Shown here: one piece after another, positions 1 to 53,708 of the stretch
How the letters are laid out: each line of letters starts with the position of its first letter
Numbering within the stretch: the stretch's first letter is position 1
Assembly: GCA_009760855.2 (NCBI GenBank)
Contig: WPIO01000061.1
Coordinates: forward strand, 2,481,578 to 2,545,577
DNA length: 64,000 bases
DNA from: Cristatella mucedo
Lineage: Eukaryota; Bryozoa; Phylactolaemata; Cristatellidae
Reading direction: 5' to 3'
Notes under the pieces: generated by a model
The model's input: the letters and a program-made list of their open reading frames with translations, nothing else
The model's database searches: none
What the model was told of the DNA's origin: nothing
Made by a program: the position numbers and the translations under genes

Positions 1-2
1 TG

Positions 3-875
3 CCTGCCCTCGAGCAGGTGTTTGGAGGGATATCCCCACCCTCTGGAGGAGACCCTCTACAAGTAGTGATCCCGGCCTCGGTCCCGGGCTGCAGAGGGTT
101 CGAGATACAGTCGATAGACGAGATCTTGGGCGTGAGGAATGGGGTATCGACCCTACGTGGCCTGCGCTACGGCTTTAATAACAAACTGCGAAAGCAGTTT
201 GAGCTGGGCTTCTCAACCGAGGCCCAAGCAAAAGAGGCGGCAGCAGTCCTGGTTAAATCTTTTCCAGGAGCGAGGCACCAGGTCGACCGCTCCATTGTGG
301 TCACGCTGATAGGGATTCACCCTAGAGTAAAAGTGGAGGTGGTGGCAGCAGCACTTTCTGCCTATGGCAAAGTGCTGAGGCACAAACTGGGCACCTACAG
401 GGGCACCAACATCGCGAACGGGAACAGACAGATCCTGTTCGAGATGGAGAAACCCCTCCCCCTCTCGATGTCCTTTGAGGGCAGCGAGGGCCTGGTGGCG
501 GTTAGGTACATGGGCATGCCACCCCCGTGCGGACAGTGTGGCCAAGCCGGCCACAAGGCGCTGCTATGCCCAAATAGGGTCTGCAATGGATGCAGCCAAC
601 TGGGGCACTACATGGCAGACTGCCCCCTGGTGAAGTGCTTCCGGTGCAGGAAACCAGGCCACATGGCCCGCTCCTGCACCGTTGCGCAGAAATGCGGTGG
701 GTGCGGGGCCGAGGGGCACTCGAGCAAGGAGTGCCAGAAGAGCAGGCCTAGGCGAAAGGCAATCTTGGAGACTTCCTGGGCGTCAGACGCCGATGAGGAG
801 GCCCTCCTGAGTGCGGCTGCAGAAGCCGAAAAAGTCCTGGCCACACTCCCAGCAGCGCCTGGGGGGAGGCCCTGA
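3..875 (+). CDS. ORF1 protein of U2-targeting LINE, RNA-binding with four CCHC zinc knuckles (5' partial)
   Basis: The frame is open to the left edge of the window, so the true start lies upstream; the first in-frame GTG at 18 is only a convenience start. Counted from there, residues about 94-165 resemble an RRM-like RNA-binding fold. Four perfect C-X2-C-X4-H-X4-C knuckles follow at residues 171-184, 189-202, 207-220 and 226-239, then a basic stretch (RPRRK) and an acidic, Ala-rich tail. ORF1 proteins of LINEs coat the element RNA and act as nucleic-acid chaperones; the knuckles fit that role. The frame ends at a TGA at 873-875, immediately after a G6 run, and the natural continuation is in another frame from about 866. 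I am confident about the zinc-knuckle protein; the RRM is a fold-level guess. Confidence 0.85.
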   Translation, partial: PALEQVFGGISPPSGGDPLQVVIPASVPGCRGFEIQSIDEILGVRNGVSTLRGLRYGFNNKLRKQFELGFSTEAQAKEAAAVLVKSFPGARHQVDRSIVVTLIGIHPRVKVEVVAAALSAYGKVLRHKLGTYRGTNIANGNRQILFEMEKPLPLSMSFEGSEGLVAVRYMGMPPPCGQCGQAGHKALLCPNRVCNGCSQLGHYMADCPLVKCFRCRKPGHMARSCTVAQKCGGCGAEGHSSKECQKSRPRRKAILETSWASDADEEALLSAAAEAEKVLATLPAAPGGRP

Positions 876-1272
876 GTGCCCCCCCCTTAGGCCCCCACCT
901 GTGGCTGCCCTCCCCCCACGCGAGGAGCAGGCCTCAGTAGACCTGGTGGACACCCAGAGTGCATCCTCTGAGGAGCCCGCCAGCCCCCAGGGATCACTCC
1001 GCATAGCCGACATGAGCGACATGGAGGAAATGTCGGAGTCGGATGACGACGATACGGTCCTGCAGGGAGGAGGGGAATGTATGCCAGTCGCACGCAGCAC
1101 CCCAGCCCAGACGGGGAAAAAGACTGGCCGCGCCACTAACCCTGCATCCTCCCCCTCAGACAGGGACAGTGACTCCTCCACTCAGAGAAGCCTGCGAGCC
1201 AGAACCAGGGTCACCCTAGCAACTAGGCCCCCAGAGGGTAGAGGGAAGACCCCGAAGCCCGGCAATGTCTAG
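866..1272 (+). CDS. ORF1 C-terminal segment, displaced by a frameshift
   Basis: This segment is open from upstream of 866 to a TAG at 1270-1272 and encodes a Pro/Ser/Thr-rich, strongly acidic tail including SESDDDD, ending in a basic patch. It overlaps the ORF1 knuckle frame near 811-875, and the switch falls at the G6 run near 855-860, so I read it as the C-terminus of the same protein split by a one-base indel. Its stop codon overlaps the ATG that probably starts ORF2 (ATGTCTAG at 1265-1272), a tight junction that would suit stop-restart translation. No domain is recognisable. The alternative, a separate small acidic ORF, is less likely. Confidence 0.65.
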
Positions 1273-1555
1273 TGCCTTCCTGACAGCACGGGAGGAGGAG
1301 GAAAGGGAGGACCCGAGGCCGGAGCCAGATCCAGACGAGCCCTCCGGCTTCGTTGAGAGCTGGAGCACCAACATCGCGACCTGCATGGCAGCTAGGGACT
1401 GGGTAGGCTTCTGCCGCTCTGTAGCCGAGATGTCCGCTGCATGGCTTACGCTTGCGCGCCGCCTAGTCAAACACAGGCTTCAGCTTGGCAGGTCGAGCGT
1501 CTGCGCATCCCCAGCATCGAACCCCCGACTGCCGGCGAGCCAGCCCCCCCCCCCT
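1265..1555 (+). CDS. ORF2 N-terminal segment, before frameshift
   Basis: The ATG at 1265 overlaps the ORF1 stop. The first about 95 residues are acidic (EEEERED), then contain a Trp/Cys-containing helix-like stretch ending in basic residues (RRLVKHRL) and a Pro-rich linker. No zinc finger of the kind found at the N-terminus of R2 proteins is obvious. The frame must change at the C11 run at 1544-1554 to join the reverse transcriptase; in this frame the protein would otherwise continue to a stop near 1699. Role inferred as the N-terminus of the ORF2 polyprotein, which in related elements binds target DNA or element RNA. The homopolymer position makes a sequencing or replication slip the simplest explanation for the break. 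Confidence 0.6.
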
Positions 1556-3372
1556 CTAGGAGAGGCTGGAGCCCGCAACAGGCCTCGAGGCTGCAGAAAC
1601 TTTACCGCTGCAATCGTGGCAGAGCAGTACGTAGCGTGCTGCAGCCAATGCCCACGACCTTCTCGGGTGACCGCGCCGCGTGCCGCGAATTCTGGCTGAA
1701 GGAAGCCGAGGCTAGACCAGTTGACACAGCTGGTCTACGACGCACGATGGCCAGAATAATGGACGCGAGAGCCCAACCACAAGATCGGGTTCTCACTGCC
1801 CCCCTGCAGAAGACTGAAGTGGCAGCTAGGCTTCGCAGGGCCAGCAACACGTCCCCAGGGGCCGACAGGCTCGAATACCGCCATCTGAAGGCAGTTGATG
1901 CCCGCTGCAGCCTTGTCACGGAGGTCCTTAATGGCTGTCTACTGTTTGGCGATGTCCCCCCGGACTGGAAGACGGGCCACACGGTCCTAATCCATAAAAA
2001 GGGAGACCCAGCTGACCCGGGCAACTTCCGCCCGATCACGCTACTGCCAACGCTATATAAACTCCTGTCGGGATGCCTGGCCGCGCGCCTCACAGCCTTT
2101 CTTCGCGAGCACGAGCTCCTTTCGCCACAACAGAAGGGCTTCCTGCCGGGCTGCGAGGGCTGCCTCGAACAGTCCTTTCTGGTCGAATCGGCTCTCCGAG
2201 ACGCCACAAAGAGGAAGAGGCCCCTCTGCGGTGCCTTCCTGGACCTCCAGAACGCCTTCCCTAGTGTGCCGCACGACTCTCTCTTCGAGACTCTGCGGCA
2301 CCTGGGAGTGGAGCAGCAGCTGATAGACCTCGTCTCCAAGATCTACCAAGGATCGACGATTGTGCTGCGCCTAGGCTCGGAGTCGCTGGCCCCCTTCCCA
2401 GCGGCCGCCGGAGTCAGGCAGGGCGATCCGCTGTCGCCCATCCTGTTTGATGCGGTTATGGAAACGCTTGTCCGCTCGCTTGCTTCTGCTTCGGATAGGC
2501 ATGGCTACTCCCTCGGCTCCGTGAACGTATCGGTATGCGCCCTGGCCGATGACCTAGCCCTCTTCGCCAGGTCACCCGTCAGCTTGCAGAGGTTGCTCCA
2601 CAGAGCAAACAACACCGCGGCGAAGGTGGGCCTAACCTTTCGCCCAGGTAAGTGCCGCATTCTGCTGCGTAATGTGGCTGCAACTGACCGCTCTGTCTTC
2701 CTCATTGCAGGCGCCGAGATCCCTCTCCTGCCGCAAGAGGAGGCGTACGAATACCTGGGAGCGCCGCAGGGTTTTGCCTACCCCAGGGCCGAAGTCGAGG
2801 CTGCAGCCACGTCCCTCTCTAGGGACATTCTCCTCCTGCAGAACTTGCTCCTCGCGCCCTGGCAGAAGCTAGACGCCCTGCGCACCTTCATGCTCCCGAG
2901 GCTCGAATACCTGGGCAGGGCGAAGTGGCTGAAGAAGAAGCTCTTGCAGCCTGTCGACAGAGCCACCCGTGACCTCTGTAGATATGCTTGCTCTCTTCTG
3001 CTTAGGGCGACGACTGGCTTCTTCCACGCACCTCGGATGTACGGAGGCCTCGGCTTCATCCCCATGAAGCAAGAGATAGACATCCTTCGCGCCACCCAAG
3101 CGTGCAGGATGCTGGTCTCCAGCGACCCACTAATACGAACGGTCGCAACGGAGGGTCTGGACAATGCCATCAGGGTGCTCCGTGGCACGCCTTCGGACGA
3201 TGCACGTACGATTTTCCTTTCAGGAGGATCGTTCGAGGAGGGCGCCCACCAGGGCTCGCGCTCCCTTTGGTCGGAAGCCAGACAGGCTCTCAAGAGGCTC
3301 AACGTAGCGACCATCTACACGCAGGGCGCCTTGAGCCTAGGATGGAGCGAGGAGAGCATGCGACGCCACAGT
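1556..3372 (+). CDS. ORF2 reverse transcriptase domain of U2-targeting LINE
   Basis: The frame (open 1441-3399) carries a complete non-LTR reverse transcriptase. Visible in order are the finger motif LIHKKGDPADPGNFRPITLL (about 1987-2046), motif A FLDLQNAF (catalytic Asp about 2242), motif B GVRQGDPLSPILFD (about 2410-2451), motif C with LADD (catalytic Asp pair at 2548-2553, Leu in place of the usual Phe or Tyr), motif D GLTFRPGKCRIL and a thumb-side YEYLG. The following thumb region contains HAPRMYGGLGF, as in R2-type proteins. The enzyme copies element RNA at a nick in the target (target-primed reverse transcription). All catalytic residues are intact although the frame is interrupted at both ends: at the C11 run upstream, and between about 3355 and 3375 downstream. 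Confidence 0.9.
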
Positions 3373-4319
3373 TCAACACCAAGACGATGGTGTCGATAAT
3401 CCGCAAGGACATATCGACTGGCTGGGCCAAGGAGTGGTGCTCCAAGCGTGATCAGGGCAAAGTAGCTGCGTGTCTGGCGACAGACAAGCATGCGAATCAC
3501 TCCCACTTTCTCCTATCTGGCTTTGCTCTCTCTTTTGCGTCCTGGCGGTTTATTTTCAGGGCAAGACTCGACCTCCTGCCATGTGCCGTCGTCAGAGCAA
3601 GATGGGACACCGAGCACCTGGTGGAATGCAGGCGAGGGTGCGGCGTCGACGAGACGCTGCCGCACGCCATCAACAACTGCAAGCCGATGATGCCCACCAT
3701 CACGGAGCGGCACGACGCCATCCTGAAGCGCCTCGTTGAAGCCCTACCGAGAGCACTCCAACGCTACGCCCGGGTAGACCGTCATCACGAGCTGGACCCG
3801 TCCCCGCTCCTCCGCCCGGACCTGGTTGTGGACACTGGCCGCTACGCTGTCATTGTCGACGTTGCTGTACCGTTCGACAACGGTATAGAAGCGTTGGACA
3901 GGGCAGCGACCCGGAAGATCGAAAAGTACCAGGGCTTGGCCGACGAACTCCGCAGGCAAGGCAGACACGTCGAGCAGCACGCCTTCGTCGTTGGCGCCCT
4001 TGGCACCTGGCCCCCAGCGAACGAGGCCACGCTGCAGGCCCTGCGAGTGAACTTTAAATACCGCAAGCTGATGCGCAAGCTCTGCGTGAGCGACGCCATC
4101 AATGGCTCAGCTGCGGTATGGAGGAAGTTCGTCGGCCTCCCTAGGCAAGAGGACGAAGGAGGACTCGGAGCGCAAGCGCCGCTAGAGCTAGGGCCCACTA
4201 GGGGCCCAGGCACTGCGCAAGCGTTGCTAGCGCCCGCACCCGCTAGGGGGGCGGACGGCGCACTGAGTGGTGCAACGCAGGCTCCGCAAGGGGATGAAGC
4301 GGCACCCAGTCGCGCGTAG
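3373..4319 (+). CDS. ORF2 C-terminal restriction-like endonuclease (CCHC and PD-X12-D)
   Basis: From NTKTMVSIIRKD the protein resumes in a third frame and is open to the TAG at 4317-4319. It shows the C-terminal signature of R2-lineage LINEs: a CCHC motif C-X3-C-X7-H-X4-C starting at about 3627 (CRRGCG with His 8 residues after the second Cys), then RPDLVV with PD at about 3816, X12, D in VIVDVAVPFDN, and KYQGL downstream as the basic residue of the active site. In R2 this domain nicks the target and allows sequence-specific insertion; here the flanking U2 sequence shows what it cuts. The last about 45 residues are low-complexity Ala/Gly/Pro encoded by the 45-bp repeat array and are probably dispensable. 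Confidence 0.88.
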
Positions 4320-4440
4320 CGTCGACACCCGCTAGGGGGACCGGTGTCTTCGGGCCGCGAATAGCACCAGGACCCTATAGGGGGCCTGGTGGCGAGCTGT
4401 CGCGTTCTGCGCTGGCGCCCGCAAGGGGCAACGGCGGCGC
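4171..4440 (+). repeat. Six-unit 45-bp tandem array spanning the ORF2 stop codon
   Basis: A marker of the form CCGCTAGGGG or CCGCAAGGGG recurs with its G-run beginning at 4201, 4246, 4290, 4335, 4380 and 4425, a spacing of 44-45 bp each time. Forty-five bp is 15 codons, so the array keeps frame and encodes an Ala/Gly/Pro-rich repeat at the ORF2 C-terminus in units 1-3. The stop codon sits between units 3 and 4, and units 4-6 lie in the 3' UTR. Units have diverged considerably. Confidence 0.8.
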
Positions 4441-4707
4441 ACAGCTGCGCATGCGACCCATCACCTTCGTGAGGGCAAGCGACAGTGTTGGCGTAGGATT
4501 AGTGCCGGCACCCGGCGGCAGCGCAAGCGGACCGGAACCTGCTCTGCAGGCTGGTCGAGCGCACCTGGCTGTCCAGCAGCGTGGAGTGTGCGAAATAAGC
4601 CACTCTGTCCCTAGCGCCCCGGATTGGCCGTCCGGGCCCGCTGTGTACCAGTCGCGATCGGGTGTCGTCCCGACAGACTGAGGCCTACTGTAGTGAGAGC
4701 AGTACCC

Positions 4708-4713
4708 AATAAA
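4708..4713 (+). promoter_or_regulatory. AATAAA just before the 3' end of the U2-targeting LINE
   Basis: A canonical AATAAA hexamer lies 9 bases before the first U2-like base. It could act as a polyadenylation signal for the element or be a chance match in its AT-rich terminus; there is no poly(A) tail before the U2 junction. Confidence 0.35.
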
Positions 4714-4721
4714 CATTATCA

Positions 4722-4876
4722 ATCTGTTCTTATCAGCTTAATATCTGATACACGGTCCATCGGATCGTTATGATATTAATCTGATTTTTGGAACTCGGCA
4801 AGGTGTCTGAGGCTTGCCTCGGCCTAGCCACGGGTTTACCTGGTATTGCAGTGCCTCCAGGAGACAGGGCACAACC
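4722..4876 (+). ncRNA. U2: U2 spliceosomal snRNA gene, 3' portion (5' part displaced by insertion)
   Basis: ATCTGTTCTTATCAG, then TTAATATCTGATA, matches U2 from about nucleotide 38 onward. Stem IIa is ACGGTCC-ATC-GGATCGT, seven pairs with one G.U, different in sequence from human U2 but fully paired. The Sm site ATTTTTGG is intact. Stem III includes GAGGC-TT-GCCTC. Stem IV is ACCTGG ... CCAGG around the conserved TATTGCAGTGCCT loop, which binds U2-specific proteins. Length from this point to the end (about 155 nt) equals the corresponding part of human U2 within a few bases. The first about 37 nt, including the branch-point recognition region, are absent because the retrotransposon ends here. 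This gene copy cannot give normal U2, although the remaining structure shows no decay. Confidence 0.92.
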
Positions 4877-7340
4877 ATGAGCCAGCTGGTTCTTATACGG
4901 TGCAGCCTCTAATGCTGCTTATTGGCTCAAGTGCATCACAAATCATAGGCCATCAAAATAGGGGACTTGGCAAGAAACTGTTGAGTCCTCTGACAAATGC
5001 CTTTGATTAAGAGGAGGATATAAGGCCAACCCACAACTTGGCTAAGTGGCTAAAAGTAGTGGCCATTTTGTGTCGTGAAGAATAAGAATGTCGTGAAGAA
5101 TAAGAATGCTTCTGCATTCTCAATGTCTTCCTAATCTGAGGTGTTTATATAGTGACAACATCACCTAGTCCAAGTGAACTAGTATTCAAAACAAATACCT
5201 TGGCCAGAAATTAAATAGCTATGCACTAGTCGTATGTAGAGAAGGCCCGAATAGGGTAAGCAACCACACGAAATCACTGCCAGAGCTGAACAGCAAGTGA
5301 ACTATAACACGGGTTCAACAGTGCACACACAAAAGAAGCGATTCCATAAAGAAATCAATCAAAATCCATTCAAAAAAAAGTCATAATGTGCCCCAGTGAG
5401 CTTTTGACTCGAAACCACACTAATTTCACTAAAAACCAAGACCTGGCTAGGAGCATTACTAAATTAATTCCAACCGTCTGGAAAGCCCACGTTTAAGATT
5501 TCAGACCCAGTAAAATGAAAGACTGCATTGTGATCCAAATCTTTGTTGAATGAATTTTGTCAAAATTAAACGAAATATTAATCTACATAAATAAATGTAA
5601 AAAAGGGTTGCTCAAAACCTACACACCAAGGCATTAATGTATCGTGAAATTAATAATGCTATGAAATCAAGTTGCCAGATATGGCAGAAACAAATCCTTA
5701 AAAATAAATACATTCATTGCACAAAAAAACCTAGTGTGGCTGAGCACAATGACTGCTGGGCATTTAAGGAGAGCCATTCAGCTAAGCAAACAAAAACAAA
5801 CCCGGCATTCTAAAATTGACTCTGGAGGACCTTCCATAGCTGACCGTAAAGATGGGTGCACATGTGGCAGGTTGGCTAGGTGGCAACAGCTGTGGCAATA
5901 AGGCTCACTTGCCAACTCCAGCCTGTGGTCAGGCCACTCAAATATTTGAACATAGTTAAGCAAGGAATACGAACGAGGCCAAACTGTTAAAATTTGCCCC
6001 CCCCCTTCCGACACTGTTTACGGCTCAGGCCCCAACTGCCAGCCCGAGAGAATGGGGGACCACGTGGGATGAGCCTACAGGTGCATATAGGTGCAGAGCC
6101 TTAATGGAAATTTTCTCTCAAGTGAACAATGTTTCCATGAGAAAACTAAAAATGATAATGGAGCACTGCATAATTTCATCCCGATAGAAACTACAAAGAA
6201 AGACTTGGGGGTTCATGTCACAAGTATGGCTGACAGTCTCTGGTGATTGTTTGCATGGAAATGAGGGGATGTAGGGTCAAGCAACTGTGTTCAGGAGGTT
6301 AGGCATTCCTGCAGAAATTTAGATTAAACTACTTATGGATAGATATTACCAACGGAGCCTAAAAAATGCCCAAGCCAAGACAAGATGGGGCAAAATGAAC
6401 TTTGACATTTAGCGAATACACGAACAACTAACGACAACTCTTACTGCACCGATGAAGGATCGTTTTAGTTGCAGCTCACTAGAGAGCTCCTACACCAAGT
6501 ACAGTTGAGTTGTTAACATGCCAGTCACTGAGTAGTGCCTTGGTCAGAGCAGAAGGACTGCCTTTTCCAATGCAACTGTCTTTGTGAGCACTCTGCAGCT
6601 GCTTCTGCAGATGCAAAAATTATGAATGCTTGGCATAGTATTGAAAAACCCAATTTTTACCTGTTATGATAACTGATTTTACTCTTGAGCTCCTCCAGAA
6701 AAATAGTATAACTATATGACACTTGTTTATACAATTATGCCACAATTGCTCAGGCAATTCACCGAAGTGGATTTGGAATCACAGCTTCCGACGATGAACA
6801 TTGAACACGACGCCACACCGAGTTGAGAACAACCAACAGTAAGGATGTGCTGCTCAATGGGACCAATCATAATTGGCTAACAAGGTCACGGTGGGCCAAA
6901 CCACTTCGAAGACACTCAAACAAGCCCAAAAACCACCGTAAGGAAAAACGAATTTCAAAAGACGGGATTTCGAGACGTCTCACTAAATTCAAACGTGTAA
7001 AATACAAACAGTCTTGAGTTCAATACCGATAAAACGACCTTTTCGTACTATTTGGGTAGTACTTAAAACTGAAACCCTGAAACTTGATCTGGCACCCAAA
7101 TATATTATTATTAAGGAGTAGCTAAAAACTGCTAGATCGAGATCAACCCTTCGATCGAGCTTCATTTGCACCTAATGTAAAATGCCTAGAGAGAAATGAT
7201 CTCTCGGAGGGCGCTACATCAAGTGCATTATTAAATTTATATTAAATTCAGTGACATGTAATTTAATGCAAATAAATGAAATAAATAAATTTTCACATGT
7301 ACCACATTCCAGCTAATGTGCATGGGGCCGTGGAACTTAC
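4877..7340. other. Unannotated AT-rich sequence downstream of U2
   Basis: Apart from the 18-bp duplication I see no gene, RNA or recognisable transposon here. Short open frames (for example minus strand 5778-6014 and plus strand 6823-7017) lack splice signals or motifs. The first few hundred bases may be U2 flanking or spacer DNA. No clear snRNA 3' box is visible after 4876. Confidence 0.5.
5071..5106 (+). repeat. Perfect 2 x 18 bp tandem duplication
   Basis: TGTCGTGAAGAATAAGAA occurs twice back to back in otherwise unique sequence downstream of U2. Confidence 0.9.
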
Positions 7341-22724: not shown

Positions 22725-23340
22725 TAATCATGGGAAAGCCAAGTTAGATTCAGAAATTGGGAAGGCTAAGCTCTAAATCGGCTCTGCCAGCATATCTCTC
22801 CTTGAATGTGTCCAAAATCTAGGTATCATGTTCCAAAGTGACCTTTTATTGGACGACCGCACTAGCGCCACAGTCATGTCTATGTAGTTTCAGATACATA
22901 AACTTGCTGAAGTTTGGGCTTGTTTAGATAGGGATACATAATCTAAGTTGGTCATGCATTTATGACATCCAGTCGTGACTTCTGTAAATCACTGCCTGCT
23001 GGCCTAACGGCATGTGCAATAAGGTGCTTCTGCGGGTGTAAATAAAATAAAACTCTGCAGCTAGGCTTGTCTGTCGTGAGAGTCACAGTTGCAACACTCA
23101 AACACTTCTCACCGACCTGTACTTAATTAGCAGTTAAGCAAAGGATCGATTTCAAGGTTTAGTTGCTAAGTTTTAGGTTCCTTAATTACTTTGCTCAAGG
23201 CTACCTATCAGAACTACTGCCCAACAGGCTAAGCGTCGTAGCAACTGCTTTTCGTAATCGAACTGTTTACCTATAGTTCGTACAAACCTCAAACACTTTG
23301 GAGACGGTCCTTTTAATTCGTATTCTATTTAGTTCGTACA
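22725..23340 (+). mobile_element. LINE-A fragment, C-terminal region, degenerate
   Basis: It matches the LINE-A coding end: GGCTCTGCCAGCATATCTCT, TTCCAAAGTGACC, GGTCATGCATTTATGACATC, GGCTTGTCTGTCGTGAGAGT. Frameshifts are frequent. It is joined head-on to a second LINE-A copy at about 23340. Confidence 0.7.
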
Positions 23341-24645
23341 ACGGGTCGTGGCTGACCAGCTGAACTCGTATATCAAACCCTCAAAGCTTGCTAGTAAGTT
23401 CCAGTCTGGCTTTAGAGCTAATCACTCCACAGAGTCAGCATTGCTAAAGGTTTACAACGACCTACTTAGGAATGAAGACATAAGTAGAGTGCCTCTTCTT
23501 GTTTTGCTCGATCTTTCGGCAGCTTTTGATACTGTCGACCACAAAGTTCTTACAGAGCGCATCTCATTTCACCAGGGAATCACTGGCATTGCTCTGCTAT
23601 GGTTTATTTAATATCTCAGCGGGATACTCCAGAGTATTGAAATTAATGGACAAAGATCATTAGATGTACCTCTGAAATATGTTGTACCTCAGGGCTCCGT
23701 ACTAGATCCTGTCCTTTTCACGGTTTATGCTCTCCCTCTTAATGATGTGACTGCCAAGCACAATCTAAGCTTTCACTTGTATGTGGATGACACTCAGTTG
23801 TACCTTTGCCTTAACCTTTCCCAGCCTTCGAACACCTAAAATTCTCTCTAATCACTTGCTGAATGTATAGATGACATCGGCACATGGATGGTTCAGATAA
23901 AGATACCACGTCTAAATTTTCCCATGTATTTGTGACATCCCGTCTTGACTTCTGTATCTCGCTGCATGCCGGCCTTCCGGTATGTGCAGTCAGGCGATTA
24001 CAGCTTGTACAAAACTCTGCAGCCTGGCTTTTCTCTTGTGAACGTCACAGTTTTTACATCAAACAACTTCTCGCCACCGTGCACTGGCTACCAGTCATGC
24101 TACGGATCAACTTCAAAAATTTGTAGCTCACTTTTGGGTTCCTTCATTCTTTGGCTCCTGCCTATATCTCAGATCAACCCCGCACCAGGCCAAGCATCGT
24201 ACCACCAGCTTTTCGGAATCCAACAGTTTACCACTACCTCGTACAAACCTCAAATCCTCTTCAGACCGTGCATTTAGTTCGTAAGCTCCGAATGCCGGGA
24301 ACTCCCTCCGAATTGAGTCACAGCATTCCCTGACTTGACCACATTTAAAAATAACTGAAAAACAAATACCTATTTAGTACAGCATTTAGTGGGTCCCCTG
24401 TCATTTTTCATTCATGTGCTAATGGGTTCTGACACTGCATGCTGCCACCAACCACATTTGTATGCTGACCCTGTGCATGTCACGCCTAACCAGGTTGTTC
24501 ATGTTGTTTATCAAGCATGATATTACTCCCGATTCCATCGCGTTTCCCTTTGCAGCAATTGTAAAGCACCTAGGAGGAGATTGAGTTCTCTGAGGGCGCC
24601 GTATTAAGTGCATAATTATTATTAATATCATTATTATTGTTCTCG
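23341..24645 (+). mobile_element. LINE-A copy from mid reverse transcriptase to (ATT)n tail
   Basis: It encodes VADQLNSYIKPSKL, FQSGFRANHSTESALL, LLVLLDLSAAFDTVDHKVL (motif A), a motif B region YVVPQGSVLDPVLFTVYALP (frame-broken) and YVDDTQLYL (motif C with one substitution from YADD), then a deletion, the C-terminal block, the 3' hairpin (24553-24600) and a short ATT tail. Confidence 0.8.
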
Positions 24646-50388: not shown

Positions 50389-50833
50389 TGCACTGGTGCA
50401 GCTCTCAGCTTAGCCGCAATGGGAGCCATTGCCTTAGCGTGCTCGACTGGGGCACCAAGTACAGACCCGCTCCTGACCCACCTAGCTCAGGTTAGAATGG
50501 AGCTTTAGGCAGGCGATGCGGTTAGGAGATGGAGCGACTAATGTGCTTGTCTTAGCGAGTTTGACTAGGACACGTAGTACAGGCCCGGCTCCTGGTCTAC
50601 CGACTAACGTTAGAATGAAGCCTGGTGCAGACGATGCGGTCAGGAGGTGCACTGACTAATATGCTGAAGTAGAAATAGCAGCTTCGCGCGAGGTCAGGAG
50701 TTTAGAGGAGAGAGAATATAATGGGACGACTAACAGAGCTCGGGGCTACAGCTTGGGTAGTCGATCAAAGACTACGCCTCGAGAGCACGGCTGCAGCTTG
50801 GTAGTCGATGCGAGACTACGCTTCGAGAGCACG
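50389..50833 (+). repeat. Left terminal inverted repeat
   Basis: It matches the complement of 53384-53708 along its length except for an internal 118-bp duplication. It contains AATATAATGGGACGAC (50715-50730, TATA-like) and two 45-bp units each with a GTAGTC-7 nt-GACTAC hairpin (starts 50744 and 50789). Confidence 0.85.
50436..50671 (+). repeat. 118-bp tandem duplication inside the left inverted repeat
   Basis: Units begin AGCGTGCTCGACTGGGGCAC (50436) and AGCGAGTTTGACTAGGACAC (50554) and share GATGCGGT(T/C)AGGAG and GACTAAT(G/A)TGCT. The right inverted repeat has one unit only. The two units differ at many bases, so the duplication is not recent. Confidence 0.75.
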
Positions 50834-50989
50834 AGAGACGAACCTATGGCGACGAACAGCTAAGTGCAATTTAGACTGTGCAGTTGTGTTCTGCCGGCTA
50901 CTCAGTTAGCTGCTCGTATCTTGGGGTGCTGTAGCGACCCGCATTCGGGGTTGGGACAATCGCTAGGGATGTGAGCATAGGATGGTTTA

Positions 50990-51111
50990 TTATACTCGGG
51001 CTTCGGGAGTTCGTGCAGCTAACTCCGTCGGTCCTTATGGGCTGTGTAAACGCACAGGGTAGCTGGTTATACTCGGGCTTCGGGAGTTCATGCAGTTAAC
51101 TCAGTCGGTCC
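50990..51111 (+). repeat. Two 45-bp direct repeats with 77-bp period
   Basis: TTATACTCGGGCTTCGGGAG ... GTCGGTCC occurs at 50990-51034 and 51067-51111 with three differences. It lies between the left inverted repeat and the Gag start, so it is probably leader or LTR-internal sequence. Confidence 0.85.
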
Positions 51112-51345
51112 GGTGCGTGCCTGCCGAGTAAAGCAATTTCACCTGCGAGTAACCACTACTAACAGGCCCACAATGAACTGTAGCTTTCGGCACCCAGTTG
51201 TGGCCGCCTGTGTTTTAACCGCACTGCAGCGCTGCACCACACAGTACACCGATAGAGAGCCGGGGAACGAGCATCTCTCTGCGGTTACATTTTGTAACCA
51301 TGCTTTTGATTCGAAACACTTGCAACCTCTTGATTGGACGTGGGG

Positions 51346-53311
51346 ATGGCGTCGCTTAACGGTTCAGAGCTATTGAATACCTCCGGCCCAGCCTTCGACA
51401 TCCTGCAGGCGTGCCTAAACGATCGCACTATTTTTGCTTCGATCAGTCGCGATTTGACTGAGCTTTTACGAGTGCTTGAGGAAGAGAACTTGCAGCTACG
51501 CACGGCGACGGCTTCACGGGTCAGCCGCCCCAGTGCCGGCACACCAGCCGGGTCAGTAGCTTCTCCGCCGACCGACACGCAGCCAGCCACGCCGCACGGT
51601 GCTTCCACCGTACTTCATTTGCCGTCGCAGTACACAGTCGTTCCGTTACTGAGCCCGGAGAGGTACACTGCGCCCACCGCTATGTGGCCCACTGAAGGTT
51701 ACGCCCTGTACGTTACCACGTGTCCGGCTGGAGTCGCTCCGCAGATGCTGCGACAAGGAAGCTAGCTGCAAGTTATGCGCGGCCGAACCATGCGGAAAAC
51801 GCACAGGCACACTCAAGAGCCGCCTGTACTTGTGCGCCGGCGGCTAACGCAGGTGGAGGCCATGTCCATCCTGTCGCTGTCCCGCTCGATGAGCAGGCTC
51901 CTCGCACGGCTGAGCCGGCATTGCAGAGCCAGATCTTAGTTATGCCCGCACCCACAGCCGCATTCGACGGGAGCGTAGAGGCCTCATCGCTGAAACTGGC
52001 ACGCTTCCGGTGGGGCGTGATCTGACGGACTCCTTCCCACGGTGGATCAGCGATTACAAGGTGCTTTCTAGGTCTAGCTGATGGTCTCCGGACATTCAGC
52101 TGTCGCGCTTGGGGGCATAGTTTTGCGGCCGAGCGCTCGACGTATATAGCTCGGTCTATGAACGGCTCTGCATTGAGCCAGGCCAACGATGTACATTCGA
52201 GGAAATGAAAGTTGAACTAGTGCGGACGTTCAACTCTGGCGTGCGTCACGATGCTGCTCGCTGGGTCCTACAAGGTTGTCGCCAGGGTGCTGCACAAAGC
52301 GTTTACGACTTCTATAGGCACCTGGTAGATACTGCCACTGTCGCTTACCTTACTATTCCGCAGGTGGACCGTGACACTATGGTTTTCTCCTTGTTCGTTA
52401 GAGGTCTTCATCCCGACATTAGCTTCCCCGTCTTTGCCAAAAACTGTGTCTGCCTAGACGAAGTCCTAGCTTTAGCGTGTCACTTGTTTGCACAGCAGAG
52501 AGCCAGCCGATGCCCAACACCAACAGTTTATTCCCACTGCACCGAGCCCAAGAGCGCATGGCTCCCCTCGGCCCCTACTCTCTCTCGACTCCCCATTCCT
52601 CCACTCTCCAGTCCGCCACCTCCCTACCAGCCAGTAACCAGCCTGTGTCCATACCACATCACAGGCGGACCACAGCTGTGCACCGGCCGACCCTGATGGT
52701 GAATCCACCATCTGGTCACTCGTGTGTTGCTAGCTTGTGTCCACGCCACATCACAGGCTCATCAGAGGAGCCGGCATCCAATACATACATACACACGTAC
52801 ATACGAAATACGCGCCCCTCGACCTTAAGGTCACAAGCCAGGACCCGGCATACAATACATACATACATACGTACATGCGAACTATATCGCTGAAAGATGC
52901 GAAGCCAACCCTCGCTTCTTTAGTCGCCGGGCTGCTTCAGCCATGCACGCCGGCGACCAAGGCCGCCCATACCCATCCGGAAGGGATAGGGCCCCTGTAT
53001 CTTGCGATATAGAGAGGAAGGTGGATGCATTGGCCAAGCAAATGACCAAGGTGTGTGACCTAATTGCCGAGGGTCAGAGGGGAACCTTCGAACCCACCAC
53101 AAAGCACTCGTATCAGCCGCGAGGCAAGCCGCTAGTACAGAACAGTCGGCAGCCCGACTACCGGGTGCAGGCTGACATGGGCTACATGGATAGCAAGGCG
53201 GACGCAGAACGTGGCAGACCTCCCCAGTATGGGTCGGCTTATCGAAGTCACAGAGTACGGGCCAGCACACCCCAGCCGCGAGGGTTCACGGCCACACTCG
53301 GGGGTCGGTGA
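51346..53311 (+). pseudogene. Gag-like capsid protein of the inverted-repeat element, broken
   Basis: ATG at 51346 starts MASLNGSELLNTSGPAFDI with a helical LTELLRVLEEENLQLRT, then a Pro/Ser/Thr linker to about 51740. The sequence changes frame to reach AAFDGSVEASSLKLARFR (51959-52010), changes again to DLTDSFPRWISDYKV (52017-52060), passes stops at 52079-52081 and 52118-52120, and runs on as TFEEMKVELVRTFNSGVRHD, then AAQSVYDFYRHLVDTATVAY and DTMVFSLFVRGLHPDISFPV. That order (W-containing start, F-x(n)-K/R, SVxDFYxxL, FxxGL) is the capsid pattern of Ty3-like Gag. The end (about 53010-53070) has IERKVDALAKQMTKVCDLIA, a short coiled coil. No CCHC knuckle is seen. Confidence 0.68.
52640..52880 (+). 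repeat. Imperfect internal duplications in the Gag linker
   Basis: CTGTGTCCATACCACATCAC and CTTGTGTCCACGCCACATCA are about 90 bp apart, and ATACATACATACACACGTAC and ATACATACATACATACGTAC about 67 bp apart. The repeats contribute frame changes to the Pro/Ser-rich region. Confidence 0.7.
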
Positions 53312-53383
53312 CCATTCAGGTCAGTGTCGCCCAGTTCTCTTGGTCCGAGTAGGTACGTGGGCCATGCTTCGGCTGGGTACCTT

Positions 53384-53708
53384 CGCTCTCCAAACGTAGT
53401 CTCACATAGACTACCAAGCTGCAGCCGTGCTCTTGAGCCGTAGTCTCTGATTGACTACCCAAGCAGTAGCCCCGAGCTCTGTCAGTCGTCCAATTATATT
53501 CTCTCTCATCTAAACTCCTGACCTCGCGCGTAGCTGCTATTTCTACTTCAGCATATTAGTCAGTGCACGTCCTGACCGCATCTCCTGCACCAGGCTTCAT
53601 TCTAACTTGACTGAGTAGACCAGGATCCGGGCCTGTACTAGGTACCCTAGTCGACCCCGCTTAGGCAAGGGCTCCCATCACGGCTAAGCTGAGAGCTGCA
53701 CCAGTGCA
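53384..53708 (-). repeat. Right terminal inverted repeat
   Basis: The reverse complement aligns with 50389-50833 (for example GCGCGAGGTCAGGAGTTTAG, GACAGAGCTCGGGGCTAC), lacking one of the 118-bp units. Confidence 0.88.

Follow-up and report, generated by a model that had tools for sequence, protein, structure and literature searches.

The window analysed here is a 64,000-nucleotide (nt) stretch of Cristatella mucedo DNA (assembly GCA_009760855.2, contig WPIO01000061.1, positions 2,481,578 to 2,545,577 of the forward strand). It opens with a long interspersed nuclear element (LINE) that spans position 1 to about 4722 and runs off the left edge. We consider it highly probable that this is a Utopia-like LINE, encoding a restriction-like endonuclease (RLE), which was integrated into a U2 small nuclear RNA (snRNA) gene by target-primed reverse transcription, and which has a gag-like open reading frame (ORF1) upstream of the frame for its reverse transcriptase (RT) and endonuclease (ORF2). 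The endonuclease, the RT, the junction and the preserved downstream part of U2 can all be seen in the window. What is new is ORF1: in addition to the usual protein, this Utopia-like element seems to encode a gag-like one that has four CCHC knuckles. The insertion site is the ordinary one for the Utopia family and is already known.

The U2 junction and ORF2

The features that place the element in U2 and define its main protein are as follows, with percentages referring to P0001 (JGI source), the best of 80 RT matches, which is 55% identical.

1265–1549, + strand: start of ORF2 (ATG 1265) and N-terminal block, frame 2; P0001 residues 24–88 lie at 1349–1549 (31%; N-terminal alignment)
1540–3396, + strand: RT and following part of ORF2, frame 1; RVT_1, E = 2.9e-34; P0001, 54.5% over 1540–3378
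3387–4316, + strand: C-terminal part of ORF2 with CCHC linker knuckle and RLE, frame 3; P0001, 53.6% over 3387–4130
3627–3680, + strand: linker CCHC knuckle, CRRGCGVDETLPHAINNC (pattern search)
3813–3860, + strand: RPD-X12-D endonuclease motif (pattern search)
4722/4723, + strand: 3′ junction of the element with U2 nucleotide 39 (Rfam alignments; site published in PMC4640811)
4723–4879, + strand: U2 snRNA gene from nucleotide 39 to its end (RF00004; 35 of 38 pairs standard)

In an Rfam scan of the 64-kb window, the sole match to reach its gathering score was U2 (RF00004), at 4711–4879 (103.5 bits, E = 8.9e-20). There, deletions take up 26 of the first 38 positions of the model, and the sequence upstream of 4723 contributes an AUCAA match that, being short, we take as a forced alignment. 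Given only 4723–4950, the model scored 107.8 bits (E = 2.9e-23, model positions 39–192), and no U2 match was obtained at E ≤ 1 when 4100–4722 was searched with Rfam. From the gain in score on cutting at 4723 and the lack of a match before it, it follows that U2 begins at 4723, with nucleotide 39. The base preceding 4723 is an A, as is U2 nucleotide 38, so the junction is ambiguous by one base.

An initial annotation of this DNA, made from the sequence alone, had proposed a LINE inserted in a U2 gene, and the U2 remainder and the RT match confirm this. It had put the break at about U2 nucleotide 38; an exact 3′ junction does exist, and its precise place is between nucleotides 38 and 39. Also correct was the claim that the rest of U2 follows without decay: in the covariance-model alignment cut at 4723, the Sm-site region and the GCUUGC loop agree with the model, and all but three base pairs are standard. 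The compensated stem that had been described is present as well, as changed but still paired bases, although it is the second stem (presumably IIb) rather than IIa, which is identical to the consensus.

These data bear on whether the U2 piece might be an old pseudogene with a deletion, which the LINE adjoins by chance. The three non-standard pairs would suit such an origin, as would the result of a search of 4861–5000, where no 3′-box-like motif was seen with a single pattern, so that this copy of U2 was perhaps inactive. However, the break falls precisely at nucleotide 39, the known site, and the paired and conserved positions of the remainder are kept, making a chance arrangement scarcely credible.

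ORF2 encodes the CCHC motif and PD-X12-D endonuclease that the initial annotation had reported. Both its RT part, whose 667-codon frame is free of in-frame stops, and its C-terminal part match an R2 protein chain, 9nl2 (E = 1e-40 and 2.9e-13, respectively). When the window was aligned with nine relatives, R, P, D and the second D of RPD-X12-D were invariant in all 10 rows, as were the first Cys, the His and the last Cys of the linker knuckle. At the second Cys column, nine of the 10 rows have Cys and the window has Gly, its own Cys lying one residue later. An AlphaFold model of the C-terminal part was built from 10 sequences (mean predicted local distance difference test score, pLDDT, 64.6), and the top seven Foldseek matches to the endonuclease model were R2 structures (best E = 2.4e-11). 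The remaining two matches at E ≤ 0.001 were viral endonuclease domains, as expected of such a nuclease fold. Five ORF pieces were scanned with Pfam, and none matched an apurinic/apyrimidinic endonuclease (APE) domain at E ≤ 0.001. At the N-terminus of ORF2, no C2H2-like finger pattern was found, nor was there any Pfam match in 1220–1696.

We then placed the RT in a tree of 65 rows, comprising the window, 61 of the 80 matches and three R2 stretches. The other 19 matches were dropped: P0043, P0046 and P0054 because their coverage was short, P0065–P0080 by our own cut. The midpoint root serves the drawing only, and the tree program flagged an unlike letter make-up for P0001 and eight other rows. 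The window RT is sister to P0001 (100/100), groups with P0001, P0002 and two Pycnogonum rows (95/96), and belongs to a 47-row clade (99/99) that contains none of the three R2 rows. This clade includes rows named from Nasonia vitripennis and Ladona fulva, two species that PMC4640811 lists as Utopia hosts. Judged by species name only, these rows would come from published Utopia hosts, which does not imply identity with the published elements.

Collectively, the junction at nucleotide 39, the R2-like RLE and a 99/99 clade without R2 indicate that the element is Utopia-like and not R2 proper. The label "R2-type" given in the initial annotation is thus not upheld by the tree, whereas a placement of the RT outside the RLE-encoding LINEs, which would have spoken against that annotation, was not seen. 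One could still imagine an R2 element that switched its target from 28S rDNA to U2, given that R2 proteins and structures turn up as matches for both its endonuclease and its RT. The position of the three R2 rows argues against this idea, as does the part of ORF2 before the RT, where neither a zinc finger pattern nor any Pfam hit was found. It is an idea which we regard as far-fetched.

By analogy with R2 and Utopia, we infer that the ORF2 endonuclease would nick the bottom strand between U2 nucleotides 38 and 39, and that reverse transcription of the element RNA, primed at the nick, would yield the exact 3′ junction.

The upstream gag-like frame

Three features describe the region preceding ORF2.

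3–872, + strand: main part of ORF1, gag-like, with four CCHC knuckles; frame 3, open at the left window edge; zf-CCHC, E = 2.1e-11
528–734, + strand: four C-X2-C-X4-H-X4-C knuckles at 528–569, 582–623, 636–677 and 693–734 (pattern search on the translation)
868–1272, + strand: probable ORF1 tail, rich in Ser, Asp and Glu, with stop TAG at 1270–1272; frame 1, open over 811–1272

The main open frame (3–875) encodes 290 amino acids and contains four zf-CCHC stretches at E ≤ 10 in Pfam. Its knuckle stretch also matches retroviral nucleocapsid protein (E = 8.6e-08). The tail probably belongs to the same protein, but is joined to the main part only given a frameshift within 811–875. It has no Pfam match, and the chance of such an open frame was 0.037 in 5000 shuffles. 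The TAG that ends it and the ATG of ORF2 overlap by 8 nt.

To compare coding properties, we used a codon-preference score trained on ORF2. ORF1 scored 0.060 (1000 shuffles: mean −0.108, highest about 0.000) and its tail 0.068, the best among its three frames; ten other window ORFs, picked by us, scored from −0.068 to −0.278. This score largely tracks G+C content at third codon positions (GC3), and GC3 is alike in ORF1 and ORF2. Overall G+C content is 0.57–0.68 across 1–4750 (250-base steps) and goes down to 0.39 at 5001. ORF1 is likely to be part of the same element as ORF2, and its product probably binds RNA as a partner of the ORF2 protein, in the manner of APE-type LINEs.

Relatives of ORF1 were sought among candidates restricted by length and shared words. 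None was found at E ≤ 1e-3 among 6560 candidates, nor, with a longer query, at E ≤ 10 among 1458. When relatives were sought in collections of viral and prokaryote contigs, a pattern picked out 1 and 25 stretches, respectively, with 0 confirmed in each. A structure predicted for ORF1 without an alignment was uninformative (pLDDT 36.8). Among the 46 other members of the 99/99 clade, six have C2H2-like fingers before the RT according to a pattern scan that misses at least P0040, which carries a precomputed C2H2 domain. A finger-like match also occurs in P0015, from a neighbouring 12-row clade. Many of the 46 are partial or truncated models, and hence the absence of fingers says little. CCHC knuckles were seen anywhere in one member only, the scorpion sequence P0041. 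We considered this stretch as a link between ORF1 and the lineage of the element and rejected it; it lies past residue 868, where the match to its relative P0030 stops, and the gene model is probably a joined one.

The failure to find relatives of ORF1 weighs against our reading as a whole, as does the lack of a 3′-box-like motif in the search with one pattern, and so do several other points. The link between ORF1 and ORF2 is drawn from position and composition. The CpG ratio is 0.46–0.58 in ORF1 versus 0.78–0.98 in ORF2. The two frames might once have been one, before a frameshift. The window begins inside the element, and the 5′ junction lies outside it. Finally, the RT tree was built without curated Utopia, NeSL, R4, R5 and HERO references, such that R2 is the only named RLE family it excludes.

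Some of these points would favour an ORF1 that came from another LINE (e.g. of Tx1 or R1 type) directly upstream, the Utopia-like copy being 5′-truncated near 1265. This would account for the difference in CpG ratio and for the lack of a relative tying ORF1 to an RLE element. ORF1s of the CCHC type are found in many APE LINEs and are typical of them. PMC5678591 describes early-branching LINEs as having one multifunctional protein with an RLE and a later group as having two ORFs. On the other hand, the frame 1 stop overlaps the ORF2 start, codon preference and GC3 are the same in ORF1 as in ORF2 with composition unbroken, and in the N-terminal alignment the ATG of ORF2 falls where P0001 and P0002 also begin. 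A separate upstream LINE is therefore improbable in our estimation.

A less improbable, though still doubtful, alternative is that ORF1 and ORF2 are remnants of one protein with N-terminal CCHC knuckles, split by a further frameshift in this copy. The presence of three other frameshift regions lends this some weight. However, the ORF2 frame is closed upstream by a stop at 1217–1219, and the fit of its ATG to the region where P0001 and P0002 start again speaks against a single protein. We favour a Utopia-like element with a distinct ORF1.

State of the copy and its surroundings

The reading frame changes in three regions of the element: within 811–875, which contains a G6 run; near a C run at about 1545–1555; and at 3378–3387. 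Two of these are at homopolymer runs, and hence sequencing error is possible. Most likely, this copy is no longer functional or its sequence contains several reading errors. The initial annotation had suggested a young insertion. In view of the frameshifts this is not supported, and neither a young nor an old age follows from the data.

Two further features lie towards the 3′ end.

4194–4427, + strand: six hairpin cores of CCC-N4-GGG type with varied tetraloops, spanning the ORF2 tail and continuing beyond its stop
4708–4713, + strand: AATAAA motif near the element 3′ end

The hairpin cores start at 4194, 4239, 4283, 4328, 4373 and 4418, with steps of 45, 44, 45, 45 and 45 nt; the 44-nt step is a possible fourth one-base change. 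Over 340 bases, self-match at lag 45 is 0.437; in 500 shuffles, the largest value at any lag was 0.413. A chain of six cores arose in 0 of 20000 shuffles, for a pattern defined after sight of the sequence. Translated in the ORF2 frame, units one and two give P-T-R-G and P-A-R-G. The array may thus represent a protein repeat of 15 residues, an RNA structure by which the template is recognized, or the two combined. An Rfam match to V_AS7 on the array was far below its gathering score and was set aside, as were 16 other Rfam rows in the window, all below gathering scores and most on AC/TA repeats.

Beyond the element, a perfect 18-base direct duplication, TGTCGTGAAGAATAAGAA, lies at 5071–5106, about 190 bases 3′ of U2. 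In the region 11600–63450, decayed copies of repeats are numerous on either strand; several are LINE-like, and likeness is 65–94% among at least 61 pairs. A tblastn search of this region with the 80 RT matches returned nothing Utopia-like, the only hits being P0064 and P0075 at 23333–23794. Within 50429–53669, a gag-like ORF (52121–52693; Retrotrans_gag, E = 0.0015, below the cut-off) adjoins an inverted repeat pair (50546–50830 and 53385–53669, 89% alike), and a 118-base tandem repeat lies beside it.

Comparison with Utopia, R2 and Keno

Utopia, a member of the NeSL clade, has in common with the window element the RLE, here a PD-type endonuclease following a zinc knuckle, as well as the RT, the U2 target, the 3′ junction at nucleotide 39 and the precise 3′ end. 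According to PMC4640811, U2 likewise begins at nucleotide 39 on the downstream side of Utopia in Phytophthora; the paper also gives identical 3′ flanks for Utopia and Keno, and 5′ junctions that vary. This site, together with the RLE and U2 flank in the window, is in line with the statement of the initial annotation that Utopia has such an endonuclease and targets U2. In PMC13188248, R2-like proteins lacking a Myb domain are termed Utopia. The N-terminal region is where the window element departs: Utopia generally encodes a single protein that bears one to three zinc fingers at its N-terminus, whereas here four CCHC knuckles lie in an ORF1 in another frame and the ORF2 N-terminus has no zinc finger pattern. 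As such fingers are not a strict defining feature, their absence is no ground for refusing membership. A two-ORF CCHC Utopia is not described in the literature surveyed, although most subscription journals and Repbase Reports fell outside this survey, which is no proof of absence.

R2 shares with the window element the RLE with its linker knuckle fold, the RT and, by homology, the mechanism of target-primed reverse transcription. It differs in target (28S rDNA rather than the U2 flank), tree position and N-terminus. Keno, an element of Tx1 type, has the same U2 3′ junction but an APE endonuclease in place of the RLE; its likeness in having a CCHC-type ORF1 is drawn from APE LINEs at large, not from a sequence comparison. 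Conceivably, a U2-specific RLE LINE with two ORFs captured its ORF1 from an APE-type LINE, possibly Keno, the common U2 site having brought both together, though we think such a capture quite unlikely.

Utopia exemplifies parasites that inhabit essential genes of low copy number. If the present reading is true, the gag-like ORF1 of this Utopia-like element would break the textbook split between RLE LINEs with one protein and APE LINEs with two, and the two-ORF organization would bear on how LINEs gained ORF1.
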